NCBI RefSeq assembly: GCF_000420485.1 | Contig: NZ_ATVA01000011.1 | Coordinates: 1-64,000, forward strand | Reading direction: 5' to 3' | Source: Paucidesulfovibrio longus DSM 6739 | Lineage (GTDB): Bacteria > Desulfobacterota > Desulfovibrionia > Desulfovibrionales > Desulfovibrionaceae | Length of the DNA stretch: 64,000 nt | In this document: positions 1-9,111 of the stretch, one piece after another | Layout: the number at the start of each line of letters is the position of its first letter | How positions within the stretch are numbered: the first letter of the stretch is position 1 | Notes under the pieces: generated by a model | Told to the model about the DNA's origin: nothing | What the model saw: only the letters and a program-made list of their open reading frames with translations | Databases searched by the model: none | Position numbers and translations under genes: made by a program

Positions 1-1
1 C

Positions 2-289
2 ACACGGAAGCTCCGGGAGGCCGGAGCACGCATCTCCATGGATGGCCGAGGCCGCTGGATGGACAACGTTATGATCGAGCGTCTCTGGCGCTCCTTGAAG
101 TATGAATGCGTGTATCTGCGGGAGATCGAGACGGGCAGCGAGCTTCGCCGCACCCTGGCCTGGTGGATTGATTTCTACAACAACCGGCGTCCGCACAAGA
201 CCTTTGACGGCAGAAAGCCGATGGAGATATATCAGCAATTCAAGCCAGAGGGGGTACCTCCTCTGGCTTGCCCGAAAAAGGCGGCATAG
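2..289 (+). CDS. IS3-family transposase OrfB, C-terminal part (5' end outside window)
   Basis: C-terminal end of a DDE (rve-type) integrase core of the IS3 family. The frame is open from the window edge, so the gene is cut there and not necessarily broken. The segment DNVMIERLWRSLKYE holds the third catalytic acid (the E of MIERLW, near 77-79). It is followed by the family-typical W-I-D-F-Y-N-N-R-R-P-H stretch and D-G-R-K-P-M. The stop is at 287-289. A hairpin (CAAGCCAGAG / CTCTGGCTTG, 241-270) overlaps the 3' end of the gene. Ten bases downstream begins a 52-base sequence that recurs inverted at 544-594 and may be the element's right end. The IS marks the edge of an AT-rich accessory region. 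Family assignment is secure; whether the element is active cannot be judged. Confidence 0.85.
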   Translation, partial: TRKLREAGARISMDGRGRWMDNVMIERLWRSLKYECVYLREIETGSELRRTLAWWIDFYNNRRPHKTFDGRKPMEIYQQFKPEGVPPLACPKKAA

Positions 290-298
290 CCCATGAAT

Positions 299-594
299 CT
301 GTCCACCTTAGTTTTGCCGCTGACTGGTCCGAAGAAGTGAACCCACTTCTATGTTCCGTCTTCTCCAGGGGCAGGATGTGTTTCTGCCGGACACTGTGGT
401 GAATGCCGCGTATTTCTCCGAGGATGTCCAAGATTATCACAAGAAGAAATCAAAAGCGAAGGCTTGTTGGCACGCTCGCCTGCGCTGACGCAGACCCTGA
501 GCGCGCAAAGGAGCGGAGCTGCGGCGTGCCCTGTTGCCAGGAGAGAAGTGGTTCACTTCTTCGGATCAGCAGACGGCAAAACTAAGGTGGACAG
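299..594. repeat. Pair of ~50-bp inverted repeats (IS ends or MITE-like unit)
   Basis: Bases 299-350 and 544-594 are inverted copies of each other, with about five mismatches and one indel. The outer ends read CTGTCCACCTTAGTTTTGCC and its complement. The 193 bases between them carry no convincing gene. Because the left arm begins 10 bases after the transposase stop, it may be the IS right end (a CA dinucleotide at 344-345) and the right arm the left end of a second, truncated copy. Alternatively the 296-bp unit is a non-autonomous element. No target-site duplication is evident just outside 299 and 594. Confidence 0.7.
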
Positions 595-764
595 TTTTAC
601 GGGCTACGCCCCTATTGGGGGCAAGTTAGAGGGGGTGCCCCTGTACATACAAGCAGTGAATGGACAACGCCTCCGACGAAGAGCTACGGCTTATTCATCG
701 CATTGTTCATGATGTTACGGACTGACCTATCTATGCTGATTGGCTGCCCCCTCAGGATTAGAAG
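595..764. other. Non-coding spacer after the inverted repeats
   Basis: No supported gene here. Together with the repeat pair it makes a gene-free stretch of about 475 bases between the transposase end and the 1224-aa gene. It contains a GC-rich patch (602-645) resembling the sequence around the transposase stop, and then AT-rich DNA. It probably consists of insertion-sequence debris. Confidence 0.5.
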
Positions 765-3700
765 TTAGCCCTTATGTCTCTGCCCAATCTGGTTGAAGCT
801 TACAAACATGCTCGCATCATGATTCGTTGAGCTGATGAACTGCATTGGGACAATTGTGTTTGTAACGACCAAAGGGGTTAGCTTCATATCGCTGGCTTTA
901 ATACCTACTTTTTCAGCAAGTTTATCCCTTTTTTTATTCAGCCACTCAAAGCGTTCAATGTGTTTGCCAAGTAGGTCTTTTCCTTCTCCTTCAGCAACCC
1001 CTTTAAACTTATTGAGTTGCTCAGATATTTCACTAAGCGTCTTGGCTTGCTGAAGCCTTTTGCATTCAATGATGAAGACTTCGTTAGAGCTACCATTCCA
1101 CGCAATCACATCCACGTCACTTTTGTGAAACTCACCGTCCTCTTTTGTTGCCCCTAATTCGGTCATTAGGAGTCCCTGTCTAGTCTTAAAACCAATGTTC
1201 TTGTATGCCGACTCAACTTCTTTCTCAAACTTCATCCCCAATTCATGCGCAATATGTCCAATCCAAGATTTCATTGATTGAGTGTCAAAGTAAGAAGTGT
1301 CGAAAGAGCCGCATGAGGCGAAGTAGAATATATACTTCAAGCTTTCATCCAAATGGCCTGGTGAGATTATGAATTCACCATCTTTAGACTGGAGAACTGG
1401 GCGGGAAACGAAAGACCAACGCCTCTTGAACTTCCAAGGCCACCAATCGGCACCTTTAAATCCTAGAGCGTCCTGGTCCCAAGACGGTCTTTTAGGTAGG
1501 GTCAACTTGTCCAAAAACTTCTCAATGCTTGCTTGAGGGCATTCAGAGGGAGAGAGTATACTATGAACCTCCTCCCTGCTCAGTATAAGTATGGGTTGTT
1601 CATTCTCAAGCGCATACTCGTAAATAAGGTTCGCTAGTTCAAAGCCTTTGAAGATATCAACCCCGTATTCGCTAGTGACTCCTTCGGTGAATTTCTTATC
1701 AAAAAGATCGTCCGTCTTTTCCGCAGATTCAGCTATCTTAAATATGCGGTTGTAGTCCTCATCGGAATCAGCAAATTGAACATCAAAAAAGTCAGTAATG
1801 TATGGTGAGATTACCTTTTCAAAGAAAGTCCTGTCGAGATCCAGCCAGCCATTAGCTAGAGGGGTGATCCAGCTTTCCGCATATTCGCTTCGAACTGCAT
1901 CACTGTGGGAAGCGAGAAGGTAAAGAGTCCAAATCAGAGCTATTAAATCGGAAAACTCAGCGACTCCAAAGGGGCTTTCGCCTTTCTCTGGTGAATTACA
2001 GTAAGCCATCTCAATAAGTATACGCGTTGCCAGCGAAGTCTCATCAAGCTTGCTTCGCTCTTTGGCTATGACACCTTTAACTTCGGCATAATCATGTAAT
2101 GATTTGAGTGCAGGAACAGTTCGTTTCCAGATAGTTTTGTCGTGAGCTATAGCTTCAATATTTGAAAGGCAAAACTCAATGATATCCAAACGCGAGTGTT
2201 TCACAAGGATATCACTAATCAGGTTCCACAGGTGATCAACTTTCTGACTAAGGAATTTGTTCGCATGAGCTCTCTTAGTTATTTTCCCTTTGGCGAAATC
2301 TTCCGGAGTACACACTTTCGCATTTGCCCACGCTACGTCCCATTGGTGATTAGTGATGGGCTTAGATGGAATGTGCTGTGAGGCAATTAAGTCCCTATAG
2401 CTGTTAGCAGGGAAGACGTGGACAAAACGACTGTAGGGGCTGGAAAAGGCTCTCTCAATGATTGAGTCTATAGTTTCGGTGTCCAAGTGATCTTTGAAGG
2501 CTACTCCCAATATCTTATGTAAAAGAGTTTTCTCTGCGCTGTTGGTTTGGGAGTGGGATTCTTTGACGAAGACATCGTCAAAATAAACGTAGGTTATTTC
2601 AGATATCGTCTTGACAACCTCATCAAGTCCACACTCTGGCAGCGTATCAATATTGATTCCATCCCAACCATCGAACACAGGGAACTTAAGGATTAGGCTC
2701 AAATCGATAGGCTCAGGTAAGTGAAGATCAACATAGGGCAGAAGGATCATGAGCCAGTTACAAATCATCTCCCATAGTCTGTAGGCGAAATCGAATTGTA
2801 TGTTGTCTCCTTCAAATGGCGCGACCTCTACCCATACCTGAACCTTGGAGCTTGAGGTGAGGGATAGGATGATTTTGCGTTTGACTAAGTCATAGCTCAC
2901 ACTATTTTGAGCAACATTGCTTTGGGAGAAGTAGGGATTCTGTTGGTGGTTTTTTAATCTCAAGTATTTATGAAAGCGAGAGTTATAATAGCATCTGTGC
3001 CGTATCTTGGTTTTCAATCCCTTTCTGAAATTAAGTAGGTAGTCAGATTGAATCGAGATCATTGAATTCTGCATCGTGTTGAATTGACCTAGTGGGGCAT
3101 ACAAACTATATTCGTGATCTCTCCAGAACGCATAAAGTAAGGCGTCAGTGTCGAGGTAAGAGAAGGTTACATTCCTCTTATGAAGCTCCTCTCTTTGTCG
3201 CGCAATTCCGAACAGGCTTGGAAGGAAGTCTATGGCGTCATGCATCATAAGCTCTAAGTCTCCAATATTAACATGCATGATATCCCAAAGATCAAACTTC
3301 TCGTCCCACCCAATAGCGAGTGATTCTCCAAGGCCACCAAAGAATATTATTGAAATTCCCTTCTTGAAATCAGGGAAGTTGCTTGTAAACTTCGCGCACT
3401 GTTCAATGTAGGCAATGAACTTTTGGCCAATTTCCTTGCCGTCAATTCCCTCATTGTAGTTTATGGAGGTAAAGACCTCATCGCTTGGGAAATACTGTAT
3501 GAAGTGGTAGTAATCCCCTTCAGAATTTGCATAGAATCGATCATGGATATTGCCCAAAAGACCTAATTCTCTCTTCACAAAATCTAATTCGATTACATGC
3601 TCATTCAGGCAGGAGACAAGACTAGTGATAGACTTGAATTGAACCATTTTGAGATTGTGTGTGAAGACATGCAATTCGTCTTCAGCGGCAAACATCTTAA

Positions 3701-4439
3701 TTACATATCTTCGAATTGAATGAAAAAGTACGGTTGGAAGGAATAGGACGAGCTTCCCTTTAGATGAGATAATGGGCTTTTCATTAATGACAGACTCCAT
3801 GAACTCGCTGTCATAAATGTCTGAAAGTTCTTCTTTGGAAACGATAAAAGGACTCAACTCCTCAACGGTAATGCCAAGCTGAGTTAAGTCTTTTTTTGAA
3901 AAGGTAACATGTTTAGACCACTCCAGTATTTCCCGAGGAGTAGTGACAATATCCTTTTTGCAGTTGGATTCACCTGTCGTATACAGGTCTAGGTTTGCTC
4001 GTCTGATTGAAGCATCAAGAAGTGACAGTAGGGCATAGATGCTCTTTTTAGCACTATCGTATTTTTGGGGAGTGCTCCTGAAAATATCTATGATGTTTTG
4101 GACGTAGTAGGTAGCCGAGGTCAGGAGGCCGCTTAGAAAATAGAGATTACCTTCCTCAGTTATGAGATTATCAACGAAGACATCTTCCTGTGGGTCTTCT
4201 TGCCCCTTCCAAAAATAATCAAGGCGATTGTTTAGTAAGTCTGTCAGGCTTGCTATTTTATAGGGGCGTTTGCCCTTTGCAGCATATGCAGAGATGTAAG
4301 CTAGCAACTCAAGGCGGTAGCCGTTTTCCGTATGCTTAGGGTTTAAGAGCATTCCTCCTATCGCAGTCGCAATGCTATCGAATGAATACTTGCCGAGCCT
4401 CTGAGATACTTCCGTGGTGTTGTCTAACTCGCGGTTCAT
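765..4439 (-). CDS. Large 1224-aa protein of unknown function with C-terminal PD-(D/E)XK nuclease-like motif
   Basis: I do not recognise the long N-terminal part (about residues 1-1050). It has no Walker motif, no obvious membrane span and no repeat, and is leucine-, isoleucine- and phenylalanine-rich as in an alpha-helical protein. Near the C-terminus, D1108-V-D1110-V-I-A-W, then V-F-I-I-E1125-C-K1127, matches the D...E-x-K core of PD-(D/E)XK endonuclease folds. An upstream stretch (FEKEVESAYKNIGF) is typical of the first helix of such domains. The gene is clearly lower in GC than the housekeeping genes further on, so it was probably acquired. A 123-base gap separates it from the small gene upstream on the same strand. 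No good Shine-Dalgarno precedes the ATG. A role in defence against foreign DNA is an inference from nuclease motif, island and IS context. It could also be a restriction-like or DNA-repair protein. Confidence 0.75.
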   Translation of the reverse strand: MNRELDNTTEVSQRLGKYSFDSIATAIGGMLLNPKHTENGYRLELLAYISAYAAKGKRPYKIASLTDLLNNRLDYFWKGQEDPQEDVFVDNLITEEGNLYFLSGLLTSATYYVQNIIDIFRSTPQKYDSAKKSIYALLSLLDASIRRANLDLYTTGESNCKKDIVTTPREILEWSKHVTFSKKDLTQLGITVEELSPFIVSKEELSDIYDSEFMESVINEKPIISSKGKLVLFLPTVLFHSIRRYVIKMFAAEDELHVFTHNLKMVQFKSITSLVSCLNEHVIELDFVKRELGLLGNIHDRFYANSEGDYYHFIQYFPSDEVFTSINYNEGIDGKEIGQKFIAYIEQCAKFTSNFPDFKKGISIIFFGGLGESLAIGWDEKFDLWDIMHVNIGDLELMMHDAIDFLPSLFGIARQREELHKRNVTFSYLDTDALLYAFWRDHEYSLYAPLGQFNTMQNSMISIQSDYLLNFRKGLKTKIRHRCYYNSRFHKYLRLKNHQQNPYFSQSNVAQNSVSYDLVKRKIILSLTSSSKVQVWVEVAPFEGDNIQFDFAYRLWEMICNWLMILLPYVDLHLPEPIDLSLILKFPVFDGWDGINIDTLPECGLDEVVKTISEITYVYFDDVFVKESHSQTNSAEKTLLHKILGVAFKDHLDTETIDSIIERAFSSPYSRFVHVFPANSYRDLIASQHIPSKPITNHQWDVAWANAKVCTPEDFAKGKITKRAHANKFLSQKVDHLWNLISDILVKHSRLDIIEFCLSNIEAIAHDKTIWKRTVPALKSLHDYAEVKGVIAKERSKLDETSLATRILIEMAYCNSPEKGESPFGVAEFSDLIALIWTLYLLASHSDAVRSEYAESWITPLANGWLDLDRTFFEKVISPYITDFFDVQFADSDEDYNRIFKIAESAEKTDDLFDKKFTEGVTSEYGVDIFKGFELANLIYEYALENEQPILILSREEVHSILSPSECPQASIEKFLDKLTLPKRPSWDQDALGFKGADWWPWKFKRRWSFVSRPVLQSKDGEFIISPGHLDESLKYIFYFASCGSFDTSYFDTQSMKSWIGHIAHELGMKFEKEVESAYKNIGFKTRQGLLMTELGATKEDGEFHKSDVDVIAWNGSSNEVFIIECKRLQQAKTLSEISEQLNKFKGVAEGEGKDLLGKHIERFEWLNKKRDKLAEKVGIKASDMKLTPLVVTNTIVPMQFISSTNHDASMFVSFNQIGQRHKG

Positions 4440-4562
4440 ATCGTTTTCAGAGGGGGTTACGTGTGTGTTGTGAGGAGGCTAAAGGCACAGTCTTTCGGTT
4501 ATTAGAGCGATTTGGTCTTGAGAGTCGTTTTAATGAGATGGACCGGAGGATGTGTGTTCTAG

Positions 4563-4985
4563 CTATACCGCTCCAACACGTCCTAATGCATCATAGATAA
4601 ATGGGCGCATTCGGATGTAATCTGAAAATTTGTGTTCGTCAGAGTAATCATATTCATAACCATTGCCGTCATTGCGGGTTCTGATTATTTCTTGTGCCCA
4701 GTCGTTGGATTCTGAACCAATCACAAAGAATTCGATTCCATCATCATGGAAGGCATCAATGTGAATCTCGACAATGAAACCAGCTTTGGAAGGGGAGATT
4801 TCAGTCAAGGCGCTTTCAACTCCAAATAGATGTTCGCCAGCTTCGTTTTCGTCCCCTTCGTGTATGAAGCCAACAAAAACGTCGCCATTGTATGTGTGCC
4901 CATGACCTAATTCTACCGAAAAAACGGTTTCATCCTCCGTGGTATTCTCTTCAAAAAGTTGGTCTAAGCGCTCAAAAAGTGACAT
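4563..4985 (-). CDS. Small acidic hypothetical protein (140 aa) upstream of the 1224-aa gene
   Basis: The start at 4985 is chosen because AAGGAGGGGG lies just upstream of that ATG; an in-frame ATG ten codons earlier lacks this. The protein is strongly acidic (runs such as EENTTEDETVF, HEGDENEAGEH and YEYDYSDEHKFSDY), has no signal peptide or membrane span, and looks globular. I recognise no family. It has the low GC of the neighbouring 1224-aa gene and precedes it on the same strand, so the two may form one transcription unit. A small acidic partner of a nuclease could be an inhibitor, immunity factor or DNA mimic, but that is only a guess from charge and position. Confidence 0.65.
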   Translation of the reverse strand: MSLFERLDQLFEENTTEDETVFSVELGHGHTYNGDVFVGFIHEGDENEAGEHLFGVESALTEISPSKAGFIVEIHIDAFHDDGIEFFVIGSESNDWAQEIIRTRNDGNGYEYDYSDEHKFSDYIRMRPFIYDALGRVGAV

Positions 4986-5212
4986 CTTGCCCCCTCCTTC
5001 TTGTTTTGGATACAATATTTGATGGTTTGTTTTGCGTCAAGGGGGGGGCTCCGAGAAGCGGAATGAAATGTTCTTTTTAGGGTTGGCTTTTCTAGTGAAA
5101 GAGAGCGGGCAAGCCTATGAAGAAAGGGGGGGAGATAGTCGAATATCCCGTTTCCACATACCACTTCCCGCATTTTGATGGACAAATTATGGACAGCTTC
5201 CAGAAAATGAAA
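4986..5212. other. Non-coding island edge
   Basis: No supported gene. AT-rich DNA with a run of nine G at about 5041-5049. It contains the upstream region of the 140-aa gene and runs into the hairpin and tRNA-like repeat that end the island. The whole gap between the 140-aa gene and parE is 390 bases. Confidence 0.5.
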
Positions 5213-5247
5213 AAGTGGCTTACGGCAAAAAATGCTGTAAGCCACTT
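5213..5247. terminator. Strong hairpin next to the partial tRNA repeat
   Basis: AAGTGGCTTACGGCA pairs with TGCTGTAAGCCACTT (15 bp, one G-T pair) across an AAAAA loop. It sits 7 bases before the tRNA-Thr-like repeat, in the same relative place as the hairpin that follows the intact tRNA. There is no long T-run, so termination is only likely; it could also be part of an attachment-site region. Confidence 0.55.
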
Positions 5248-5253
5248 AAATCA

Positions 5254-5285
5254 TTCTGGAGCCAGGAATGAGACTTGAACTCACG
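5254..5285 (-). repeat. Copy of the tRNA-Thr 3' end (putative attachment site)
   Basis: 32 bases matching 6152-6183 at 31 positions (one T/C difference at 5276). The matched part covers the CCA end, the acceptor 3' strand and the T arm of tRNA-Thr. Duplication of a tRNA 3' end is the usual signature of tyrosine-integrase insertion. The AT-rich DNA to the left and the toxin-antitoxin pair to the right fit one or two former integrations. No integrase gene is visible in the window. Confidence 0.75.
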
Positions 5286-5375
5286 CTCTTACTGGTTATA
5301 TTTACAGGAAATCATGCTTTTCTCATGTTGGCCGGCGTTACCTGGCATGCCGTCGCGATTCGGCAAAGCTCAGGA

Positions 5376-5675
5376 CTATTCGAGGTGACTGCGAACATCC
5401 ATCCGGGCGTGCAACACGCCAATAATGTTGATGGCGTCTTCTTTCTTGTCGAGCGTGTAGAAGATGACATGCTTGCCGGATGGAAGGGAGCGGTAGCCCG
5501 TCGCGATTTCGGGGCGGTGGATGCCGAGCAGGGGATTCTCGGTCAGCCGTTCGAAAGCGGTTTTGATCTCGCGCAGGTAGGCGTCCGCCTGATCCTCGCT
5601 CCACTGGGCTGCCGTGTATTCCCAGATGCCGAGCAGATGCGCCTTGGCAGCCGCCGTGATGCGGACATCAGCCAT
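5376..5675 (-). CDS. parE: ParE-family toxin of a type II toxin-antitoxin system
   Basis: The 99-aa protein has the ParE/RelE-fold pattern: an N-terminal helix region (ITAAAKAHLLGIWEY), then FERLTENPLLGIHRPEI, YRSLPSGKHVIFYTLDK and a final IIGVLHARMD. Family members block DNA gyrase (ParE) or cleave mRNA (RelE); the sequence alone favours ParE. The ATG at 5675 gives the usual length; the longer open frame upstream overlaps the antitoxin and is not needed. It follows the antitoxin gene on the minus strand with an 8-base overlap, so the two are translationally coupled. The pair lies between the partial and the intact copy of the tRNA-Thr 3' end, which suggests it arrived with, or stabilises, a mobile element. 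Confidence 0.88.
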   Translation of the reverse strand: MADVRITAAAKAHLLGIWEYTAAQWSEDQADAYLREIKTAFERLTENPLLGIHRPEIATGYRSLPSGKHVIFYTLDKKEDAINIIGVLHARMDVRSHLE

Positions 5676-5925
5676 TCCGGCGCTGCCTGGCCTCGGCGAT
5701 GATGTCTTCCATGCTCTCCGCGACGAATTCGCCGCGATCGGCCTGTTCGGCCCCCAGGCGCAGTTCACACCGGAGCGCGTCCAGCTTCATCTGGCGGACC
5801 AGTTCCTCGTGCGTCTCCATGAACCGGAGCGCCTCCCGGACAACCTCGCTCGCGTTGTTGTAGAGGCCGCTTTCCACCTTTTCCCGGATGCTCTTTTCCA
5901 GGGTCGGAGTCAGGGATATGTGCAT
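5668..5925 (-). CDS. parD: ParD-family antitoxin (CopG-like)
   Basis: An 85-aa antitoxin. The N-terminal MHISLTPTLEKSIREKVESG begins a ribbon-helix-helix DNA-binding domain, followed by YNNASEVVREALRFMETHEE, the typical ParD helix. The C-terminal part, rich in E and R, would wrap the toxin. AAGGAGG precedes the ATG at 5925. A good promoter with an internal palindrome lies directly upstream, as expected for autorepression by the antitoxin or the complex. It is the first gene of the pair, and parE overlaps its end. Confidence 0.88.
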   Translation of the reverse strand: MHISLTPTLEKSIREKVESGLYNNASEVVREALRFMETHEELVRQMKLDALRCELRLGAEQADRGEFVAESMEDIIAEARQRRNG

Positions 5926-5948
5926 GCTTCCCTCCTTGCGTTGAGTGC

Positions 5949-5977
5949 AGAATACAAAGATTGACAATCCTTGTAAA
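5949..5977 (-). promoter_or_regulatory. parDE promoter with palindromic operator
   Basis: On the minus strand TTTACA (5972-5977) and TATTCT (5949-5954) are spaced by 17 bases. Between them lies the perfect palindrome GATTGACAATC (5959-5969), well placed for repression by the ParD ribbon-helix-helix domain. The ATG follows about 25 bases downstream. Confidence 0.6.
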
Positions 5978-6067
5978 CAGATTGAACGACTCATGCTGGG
6001 GGGCGATATTTCGAGGGGTGAACCGGCCAGGACCGTTCTCAAGTTGCCTGAAACTGTCCGCAAAGTC

Positions 6068-6088
6068 TGCGTACAGTTTGCGTACAGT
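6068..6088. repeat. Short direct repeat TGCGTACAGT x2
   Basis: TGCGTACAGT occurs at 6068-6077 and 6079-6088, an 11-base period. It lies between parD and the tRNA-Thr gene, where arm-type recombinase sites of an integrated element could lie. The function is unknown and the repeat could be chance. Confidence 0.35.
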
Positions 6089-6107
6089 CGGTGTTTTCTG
6101 CCCAAAC

Positions 6108-6153
6108 GAAGAATCCCCGCAATGCGATAACACACTGCGGGGACTTCTTTTTT
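6108..6153. terminator. Hairpin with T-tract beside tRNA-Thr
   Basis: GAAGAATCCCCGCA pairs with TGCGGGGACTTC and is followed on the plus strand by TTTTTTT. It is immediately 3' of the minus-strand tRNA-Thr gene. The strongest T-run faces the plus direction, but the stem itself could serve both strands. Confidence 0.6.
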
Positions 6154-6154
6154 C

Positions 6155-6230
6155 TGGAGCCAGGAATGAGACTCGAACTCACGACCTGCTGATTACGAAT
6201 CAGCTGCTCTACCAACTGAGCTATCCTGGC
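6155..6230 (-). tRNA. tRNA-Thr (anticodon CGT)
   Basis: The 76-nt cloverleaf reads 5' GCCAGGATAGCTCAG... with acceptor pair GCCAGGA/TCCTGGC, anticodon stem GCTGA/TCAGC around loop TTCGTAA, T arm with GTTCGAGTC, discriminator T and an encoded CCA. Anticodon CGT reads ACG. Its 3' end is repeated at 5254-5285, which marks it as an integration site. Confidence 0.95.
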
Positions 6231-6357
6231 GTTTGCGGAAGGTTCTTTTATAGGATGTCTGCGCCGTAGGTCAAGTGGGAATTGCCGCCGGGAGGATGGA
6301 AAGCGGGCGGCGGGCAGGGTGAGGGGCGAGGTGGGCGGCCATGTTTCGGCCTCCGCG

Positions 6358-9111
6358 CTAGCTGCCTTCGGCTTCGCGGAGCAGGGCGGCAGACTCCTCC
6401 TTCAGCTTGTCGAGCAGTTCCGCGCAGCGGGACTCCGCCCCGGCCAGGGCCGCCTGTTCCAGGGCCAGGGAGAGCTCGTGGCATTTCTCGGCCCCGATGC
6501 TCTTGGCGCTGCTTTTCATGGTGTGGGCGTGGCGTCGCAGGCTTTCCATGTCTCCGGTTTCCAGCGCCTCTTTCGCCAGCTTCAGGCGCACCACGGATTC
6601 TTCCAAGGCCGCAGCGAGAATCATGTCATAGGTCGCGTCGTCGATGCCCAGGCGCTGCATGGCTGCCATGCGGTCGATGAGCGGGATCGCGCCCACCGGG
6701 ATCGACGGCTTCGCGGGTTCCGGGGAAGCGGTCGTCTTTGGGGAGGCGTTCGCCGGTTGAGCCTGTCCGTCCGGAGCGGATTCTTCGACCATGTCCTTGG
6801 CCTCCTCACGCTTGCGCAGGGGGGCGAAGCGTCGCAGGAGCACCGCCAGGTCGGCCATGCGTACCGGCTTGGTCAGGAAGTCGTCCATCCCTGCCCGGAA
6901 GCAGCGATGTTTGACCTCGTCCGTCGTGTGTGCTGTCAGGGCCACGATGGGTATCGTGGAGTCCACGCCGTTCAGCCCGGCGCGGATCTGCTTTGTGGCC
7001 TCCAACCCGTCCATTCCGGGCATCTCAACGTCCATGAGCACGAGGTCGAAGTCCCCGGATTTCAGCAGTTCCAGAGCCTGCGTCCCTTCGGTGGCCACCT
7101 GCCATTCATATCCGAGCTTGTTCAGGTGCAGGGTGACCACTTTGATGTTCACGGGGTTGTCTTCAACCACCAGCACCCTGATTCGCTGCGCTGCCGCGCT
7201 GTGCAGGGTGCGCATGTGCAGTTTTTCCGGCATGAGTGCCCGGCCGGGATCGCCCAGCTTGAAGCTGGCCGTGAAGAAGAATTCGCTGCCTCTGCCCGGC
7301 GCGCTGTCCAGCCAGATGCGCCCCTGCATGAGGTCCACGAGGCGGCTGCATATGGACAGCCCCAGTCCCGTGCCGCGCGGAATGAGATCGACGGGTGCTT
7401 CGCCATGCCGAAAGCTTTCAAAGATGGATTCCTGGAGATGCTCAGGAATGCCGGGGCCCGTGTCGCGGACGGAAAAGAGCACGAAAACCTGGGAATCCCC
7501 CTCTTCGCTCTGCTGCGGGCCGGGACTCGCCTGGAGGGACACTTCGCCTTTCTGCGTGAATTTGACCGCGTTGCCGCAGAGGTTGAAGAGCACCTGTCGC
7601 AGCCGGCCGGGGTCGCCGCGCAGAAAACGCGGCGTGTTCGGGTCGATGTGCAGTTGCAGAAGAAGTCCCTTGGCCTCGGTTTGCAGCCTCAAGGCGTTGA
7701 TCACGGACCGGAGCACGGTGTGAAGGTCGAAGTCGCTGATGGACAGTTCCAGGCGATTGGACTCGGCCAGGGAGAAGTCGAGAATGTCGTTGAAGACGTT
7801 GAGCAGGTGTTCCGCGGAGTCGAGCACGGTTTCCAGGGCATCGCGCTGGCCAGGGGCGAGATCGCCCTGGAGCACGATTTCCGTCAGCCCATTGATGGCA
7901 TTGAGCGGGGTGCGGATTTCATGGCTCATGTTGGCCAGGAAGTCGCTCTTGGCCTTGTTGGCGCGTTCGGCTTCGTTCTTTGCTGTTTCCAGCTCGGAGG
8001 TGCGCGAGCGGACCTGGTTTTCCAGGCCGAGCTGGTACTGGCGCAGTTTTGCGGAGGATTCCTGGAGCTTTTCCGCCGTGCGGTTCACGGAGGCGGCAAG
8101 CTGGGCGATCTCGTCGGAACCGCGCACTTCGATGCGTGCGGAAAAATCCCCCTGGCCGAGCTTCTGGAGCGCATCCGTGAACCGGGCGAGCCAGCGTTTG
8201 AGCACGCGGCTGAAAAGCAGGCTCAGCAGCAGCACGCTCAACAGGGACAGGGTTCCGGCCAGGAGGAGGCTGCGCTGCACGCCCGCCACTGCCGCGTACG
8301 CCTGGTCGCTGTTCTGAAGCAGCACCACGCGCCAGCCCGTGTGCACGTCGTTGGCCTGCTCTCCGTCCACGTCGGAAAAGGCGCCGACGAGCAAGGCCGG
8401 TCCATCTTCCGTGAGCAGGGTGCCGTTGCCCTGCTTCTGCAGTCGGTCGCGCAGTTCGCCTTGGGCCAGGGGATGCAGGAGCTGATTGGAATCGTTGGAA
8501 GCGACGACCACGCTGGACGAATCCACGATCATGGCCCAACCTTCGGGGCCGAGGTCCACGTCGTGGACAACGTCCCAGACGGGCGTCATGCTCAGGTGGC
8601 CGACCACGACGCCGATGATGCGGCCGGTGACCGGATTGACCAGCGGAGCCGACGCGGTCATGACCACGTCGAAGGGGTAGAGCATGGCGTGCGCGCCGTA
8701 GAAGCCGCTCTTGCCGAGCATGGCGTGCTTGAACCAGAGCGTCTCGGCCCAGCTGCCGCGGAAGGAGTTGCTGATGGAGGCGCGCACGCGTCCAGCCTTG
8801 TCGAGGACGGTGATATCCTTGAGTATGGGATGGAAGCGATTGGTCTTGAGCAGCTCCTGGCGCACGGATTCCCCGTCGACTTCCAGGGACGTCAGGACTG
8901 GACTGCGCGCGAGCAGATTCAGGCTGCGCACCCCTTCGTTGACCGTGCGCTGCACGTCCTTCCCGACCTGCGCGCTGAGCGCGAGCAGCGAACGGTTCGT
9001 GCTTTCCCGCATGGATTCTTCCAGGTGGAAGAAGGTGTGGCCGACCATGGTCAAAAGGGGCACGAGTCCCATGAGCAGCAGGAGCAGGCCGATTTTGAGG
9101 TGCAGGCGCAT
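6358..9111 (-). CDS. Hybrid sensor histidine kinase (dCache-HAMP-HisKA-HATPase-REC-Hpt)
   Basis: 917 aa. Membrane spans near 6-22 and 283-303 flank a periplasmic Cache-type domain (about 30-280). Then follow HAMP (about 304-355), a coiled coil and HisKA with [11 protein letters not shown] (H397). Next come an HATPase with G-T-G-L-G-L-S, a receiver ([13 protein letters not shown]...[13 protein letters not shown]) and a C-terminal Hpt domain with the phospho-accepting H863 ([16 protein letters not shown]). The chain His-Asp-His is therefore internal, and a separate output regulator is expected elsewhere. The gene begins 3 bases after the stop of a polyamine-type periplasmic binding lipoprotein, which is the obvious candidate to present ligand to the Cache domain. 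No ABC transporter genes are present. Confidence 0.93.

Follow-up and report, generated by a model that had tools for sequence, protein, structure and literature searches.

A divergent Upx homologue in a probable mobile island beside tRNA-Thr of Paucidesulfovibrio longus DSM 6739

The DNA under study (hereafter the window) comprises the first 64 kb, positions 1 to 64,000, of contig C11 (NZ_ATVA01000011.1) of Paucidesulfovibrio longus DSM 6739, whose 3.7 Mb genome is assembled in 19 contigs. Near its left end it carries two genes which both read leftward with a gap of 123 nt between them: upx, encoding a protein of 1224 amino acids (aa), and a small gene encoding a very acidic protein. An earlier interpretation made from the letters alone (the sequence-only reading) had described them as a mobile, defence-type unit of two genes, placed in DNA of low guanine plus cytosine (GC) content between the end of an insertion sequence (IS) and a duplicated tRNA 3' end. 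The composition and flanks are confirmed by our analysis, as the GC content is 0.426 at 765-4985 versus 0.644 at 6236-64000 (42.6% GC within 64% GC DNA), and none of the 4221-base segments sampled every 200 bases within the latter interval falls below 0.609. The layout also stands, with the correction that a ParD/ParE pair, previously omitted, lies between the tRNA-end repeat and the tRNA gene. The large protein is a divergent new member of an already known defence family, Upx. The reading which we consider likely is that of a divergent Upx of about 1,220 residues which acts against phage on its own, with the small gene as a separate passenger.

The assignment to Upx results from concordant sequence and structure comparisons, which substantiate the proposed defence-type character. 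No Pfam match was found for the 1224-aa protein, and to this extent the earlier statement that it has no recognised N-terminal domain is correct; overall it is not, as the Upx models extend over the N-terminal part. Indeed, the PADLOC Upx profile matches residues 8-1204 with an expectation value (E) of 5.6e-119, and the NCBIfam Upx model (NF042954) matches residues 9-1202 (E 2.1e-135). A phmmer search of the PDB retrieved 9wuf_A over residues 17-1180 (E 3.6e-71), and up to E 1 no other solved structure was retrieved; judging by eye from the readable alignment, this chain and a partial homologue on a Salmonella plasmid (L006) appear to be one protein. An AlphaFold model of residues 25-1224, built with 45 homologues, reached a predicted local distance difference test score (pLDDT) of 86.5, and its comparison with 9WUF, entitled 'Cryo-EM structure of Upx', gave a Foldseek E of 5.8e-59 with a template modelling (TM) score of 0.78, and a Z of 36.2 over 1131 residues in a structure comparison. 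The window protein thus shares with Upx (PADLOC Upx; NF042954; PDB 9WUF) a near-full-length collinearity, the overall fold and a C-terminal D-x-D...E-C-K core, and no conserved partner gene was found for either; it differs in being only about 18-25% identical to its homologues. A marginal match to another anti-phage family, GapS1 (NF047931; residues 185-254, window 3678-3887; E 0.0011), amounts to 17.9 bits, far under the 320-bit cut-off of that family, and may be due to chance. A marginal GapS1 match is also seen in a Spirosoma homologue (L088), at a different region of the protein.

The description of the large protein as nuclease-like, with a D-x-D...E-x-K core near its C-terminus, is likewise upheld, both by the fold of the AlphaFold model, which is that of a PD-(D/E)XK domain in its C-terminal part, and by conservation of the core. 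D1108, D1110, E1125 and K1127 are invariant in 46 out of 46 aligned sequences, that is the window protein and 45 of the 69 full-length homologues, picked by eye to drop close repeats. A regular-expression check of the motif was positive for 79 of 95 open reading frames (ORFs); the ORFs missed include fragments as well as cores which are spaced differently, so that the aligned columns are the better evidence. Around the core the model exhibits the succession helix-strand-strand-strand-helix-strand, the order typical of the PD-(D/E)XK superfamily. In the structure comparison of the model, named nucleases which align with its last 160 residues are Cdn1 and a Pyrococcus repair endonuclease (both Z 8.3), and a Holliday-junction resolvase and Card1 (both Z 7.9). 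After 9WUF, the second-ranked match of the model is AF1548, of unknown function (Z 9.8), restricted to the same 160 residues, as are many further matches down to Z 6. What is shared with Card1, Cdn1/Can2 and other PD-(D/E)XK defence nucleases is this C-terminal fold; the listed matches differ from Upx in being limited to the nuclease domain. The nuclease-domain chain of Shedu was found at a Foldseek E of only 2.0.

A further region of the model possibly corresponds to a second, degenerate restriction-endonuclease-like domain, at residues ~256-477 of Upx. Here the nicking endonuclease Nt.BspD6I aligns with Z 9.1 over 169 residues (model positions 232-453), EcoT38I with Z 7.2 (model 238-380) and the small subunit of R.BspD6I (R.BspD6I2) with Z 8.1 (model 86-413). 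As the structure tool gives 7-8 as the typical best Z where there is no clear match, these values are near its background and the region is taken as a lead. An active-site pattern was detected in this region in 0 of 71 proteins, a result of little weight, since the pattern was too strict and missed a D...E-A-K noted by eye in a Bosea homologue. Considering these elements together, a plausible mechanism is that the roughly 1,040 N-terminal residues, possibly including this second domain, would sense an infection cue or bind nucleic acid, and that such recognition would allow the C-terminal nuclease to cleave DNA, most probably that of the phage. The window Upx is predicted to protect against phage. 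A table in PMC10855318 places Upx among the nucleic-acid-degrading systems, citing Gao et al. 2020. The upxY of PMC11300592 was considered and is unrelated to Upx.

The small ORF spans 140 aa if read from an ATG and 150 aa if read from a TTG at position 5015, and the predicted protein has an isoelectric point of 4.26 and a charge of about -23. Its coding features lead us to regard it as a genuine gene without assigned function: its codon likeness to upx is 0.196 in its own frame versus at most 0.016 in the other five, and a GGAGG precedes the ATG. A promoter-like site lies upstream (Table 1), but 16 such sites occur in the region versus 8.6 expected, so that this one may be chance. No match to the small protein was obtained in Pfam, PADLOC or NCBIfam, none in plasmids (E up to 0.1) or phages (E up to 5), and none was confirmed in viral contigs. 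Marginal matches were observed in 3 of 394 other genomes of the phylum, 2 of 246 of the family and 2 of 347 of the class; with per-genome E of 0.005-0.009 these are about the number expected by chance, and the class sample overlaps, yielding the same two as the family. A single-sequence structure model was useless (pLDDT 33.6).

The sequence-only reading had cast this protein as a possible inhibitor or specificity partner of the nuclease, and such a two-gene system, in which, in this lineage alone, a small acidic DNA mimic restrains the Upx nuclease, would account for its very acidic character, its position on the same strand 123 nt from upx, its coding signals and a weak local likeness to AcrIIA4, an acidic DNA-mimicking anti-CRISPR. 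However, no detectable relative was found in 64 of 64 testable Upx loci (ORF of at least 1180 aa and more than 600 bases of upstream sequence; a Upx match is present at 88 loci in all). When every ORF of 40 aa or more in 94 records was searched at the protein level, only the window's own copies were returned, besides two ORFs with E 6.6 and 7.9, and tblastn gave nothing below E 4.9 at the Upx loci. At 18-25% identity between Upx proteins a very diverged partner could escape such a single-sequence search, and a better test is provided by a genome of another genus of the same family (G555), in which Upx is 86% identical and of equal length, with 1058 of 1225 codon positions the same (stop included); here divergence hardly explains a missing partner. 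The DNA homology of window positions 1-7000 to this genome is confined to 771-4439, besides one chance 20-nt match, and it ends at the upx start codon. In the place of the small gene, upstream of Upx, the G555 locus (L129:4601-10907) has an HEPN-domain protein (PF18730, E 3.7e-11), followed by tRNA-Pro, and within its 19-kb stretch no relative of the small protein was found (best match E 0.40). The same upx gene is thus in different company in the two genomes, and no detectable relative of the small gene lies beside the testable homologues, an outcome which the sequence-only reading had itself named as refuting; the partnership is not supported. As to the AcrIIA4 likeness, it covers 31 residues (88-118, window 4632-4724) including an NDGN turn; it was seen at E 0.0073 with PHROG 28625, presumably the AcrIIA4 family judging from length and matched positions, and at E 0.17 in the PDB, which is within chance. 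The small protein is also longer than AcrIIA4, and the host genome has no match to Cas9 (TIGR01865), a target which is not strictly defining for AcrIIA4; the 14 control genomes offered no strong positive for this model, none of them passing its cut-off. We therefore regard the two-gene system as unlikely. A small protein captured on the island as a lineage-specific DNA-mimic inhibitor of Upx, or of another nuclease, is judged quite unlikely; if it were true, Upx lineages would swap the upstream modulator (acidic here, HEPN in G555) while leaving the nuclease unchanged. We infer instead that the small acidic gene is an orphan, a separate island passenger not needed for the action of Upx, and the 86% identical pair, whose flanks differ, suggests that upx moves between genomes by itself, which corrects the two-gene idea.

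Two other explanations concern upx itself. That the gene is a decaying remnant without current function, left between an IS and an integration scar, could be suspected from a contig which begins inside the IS and from tRNA-end copies between which only ParD/ParE, and no integrase, was identified. However, the frame of 1224 codons is intact, the core is invariant, and the ratio of nonsynonymous to synonymous substitution (dN/dS) against the equal-length G555 copy is 0.10, with 0.075-0.121 in each of five segments; Upx is thus maintained by purifying selection, and decay appears very improbable. A housekeeping or repair nuclease of the Holliday-junction-resolvase type would, in turn, be in line with the resemblance of the C-terminal domain, taken alone, to archaeal Hjc/Hje and EndoMS folds. 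Against it, the sole near-full-length match is Upx, the GC content is foreign, and the distribution is sporadic, with a Upx homologue in 1 of 394 other genomes in the phylum sample, 1 of 246 in the family sample and none in two congeners; we give this explanation hardly any credence.

Some observations weigh against the interpretation as a stand-alone, mobile Upx defence protein. The NF042954 score of 452.5 bits does not reach the equivalog cut-off of 1900 bits, for which reason the protein is filed as a divergent Upx homologue and not as an equivalog; this cut-off is narrow, since five of seven other homologues fail it as well (1845, 1538, 830, 638 and 174 bits) and two pass. In a quick tree of 72 proteins the window protein sits alone on a long branch, apart from a clade of 64 rows; the root is arbitrary, serving the drawing only, and the placement is unsure. 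Linkage to tRNA genes is not general, one being present in 10 of 58 scanned loci, and the 19 kb of G555 yielded no second copy of the tRNA-Pro end, so that an island at that tRNA is not evident. The pair formed by the window and G555 genes may also reflect vertical descent with replaced flanks. Finally, the literature search returned no paper on the mechanism of Upx, so that the sensing and substrate given above are our inference; no mention of Upx was found in the main text of PMC13367071 either. In respect to the family, the present protein extends Upx, with its structure solved and no mechanistic paper found, to a branch at ~18-25% identity, which helps to separate essential from lineage-specific residues.

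The proposed mobility is supported by the GC content, the IS, the tRNA-end copy and an island at the same tRNA in a congener, with no integrase seen adjacent, and these results point to a probable mobile island beside tRNA-Thr. Only the two sites listed in Table 1, the tRNA gene and the copy of its end, lie within 3 mismatches of a 28-nt tRNA-Thr-end pattern genome-wide. In the congener (G407) this tRNA-Thr adjoins the large gene which also neighbours it in the window (a sensor kinase as judged by eye; 66% identical at the DNA level), but the inserted stretch is another one, of ~8.3 kb, which closes in a 58-bp match to the window tRNA end (86% identity). The products of this island (L114, G407:C1:308000-327000) are a tyrosine integrase, a resolvase, a C-5 cytosine methylase and a UvrD helicase carrying a PD-(D/E)XK domain, the last two with matches to many PADLOC models, together with small unknown proteins. 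Its small acidic protein is not similar to that of the window. The dxs-side flank of the congener maps to another contig of the host genome, and in the 16 kb read there neither a tRNA gene nor a tRNA-end copy was found. Because only ParD/ParE, and no identified integrase, lies between the tRNA-end copies of the window, the upx unit probably represents a single layer in a series of islands which are stacked or have been deleted in part. The setting agrees with two published accounts which place Upx in a Pseudomonas island hotspot (PMC12629846) and in integrative and conjugative or integrative and mobilizable elements (ICE/IME) of Vibrio europaeus (PMC12824646).

In genome contigs 85 Upx loci were confirmed by scanning, 80 of which were kept; Upx loci were also found in viral contigs (four) and in 6 of 72,556 plasmid records, and none in 50,697 phage records. 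Querying genome contigs with the single window protein gave no Upx match, and E. coli genomes queried with the Salmonella homologue DNA gave none. Before any counting, L001, L002 and L009, which are the window itself, were removed, as were one member of the pair L003/L035 (identical ORF coordinates and score) and L092 (score and length equal to those of L075); the neighbour and tree counts use 71 other proteins with 1180 aa or more. Within 3 kb of upx the largest shared clusters are a tyrosine recombinase (9 of 71 loci) and a serine recombinase (5 of 71), identified by Pfam on one exemplar each, and among the 14 neighbour clusters listed the largest which is exclusively upstream and on the same strand occurs at 3 of 71 loci. 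No widely shared upstream partner is thus found among the 71 loci, as expected of a single-gene system without conserved partner, which is how Upx is listed.

Table 1. Positions of the upx locus and its flanking features in the window.
Feature	Position	Strand	Remarks
upx homologue	765..4439	-	1224 aa
C-terminal PD-(D/E)XK nuclease domain	768..1241	-	residues ~1067-1224; from model and structure search
Catalytic core D1108-x-D1110 ... E1125-C-K1127	1059..1118	-	from aligned columns
Restriction-endonuclease-like region, possibly a second degenerate nuclease-like domain	3009..3674	-	residues ~256-477
Small acidic protein, orphan	4563..4985	-	140 aa
Promoter-like site TTGACG-17-TATTGT	5012..5040	-	consensus match, ~26 bases before the ATG of the small gene
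Insertion sequence 3' end, multi-copy	1..350	+	rve integrase-core ORF 2-289; contig begins inside the IS
IS-end copy, inverted, diverged	544..641	-	84% identity
tRNA-Thr 3'-end copy, attachment-site (att)-like	5254..5285		97% identical over 32 nt; strand not assigned
ParE-type toxin ORF	5376..5768	-	PF05016, E 1.2e-20
ParD-type antitoxin ORF	5668..6135	-	PF03693, E 1.1e-06, match in residues 80-137
tRNA-Thr (CGT), probable integration site	6155..6230	-	tRNA gene

In respect to the flanking features, other copies of the multi-copy IS terminate at about base 350. The ParD/ParE toxin-antitoxin pair lies within 5286-6151, between the two copies of the tRNA-Thr end, and a perfect 11-bp hairpin noted by eye at 5213-5247, adjoining the tRNA-end copy, may be a terminator. 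Elsewhere in the family, a same-strand unknown protein is encoded less than 3 kb downstream of upx in L061, L062, L063 and L065, from related Rhodobacteraceae/Roseobacteraceae, the next ORF beginning 8 bases past upx in L061, L062 and L063. Downstream of the G555 upx lies a gene whose product weakly matches GajA (E 4.1e-06) and shows an OLD-like TOPRIM match which falls just short of its cut-off (E 0.00031).

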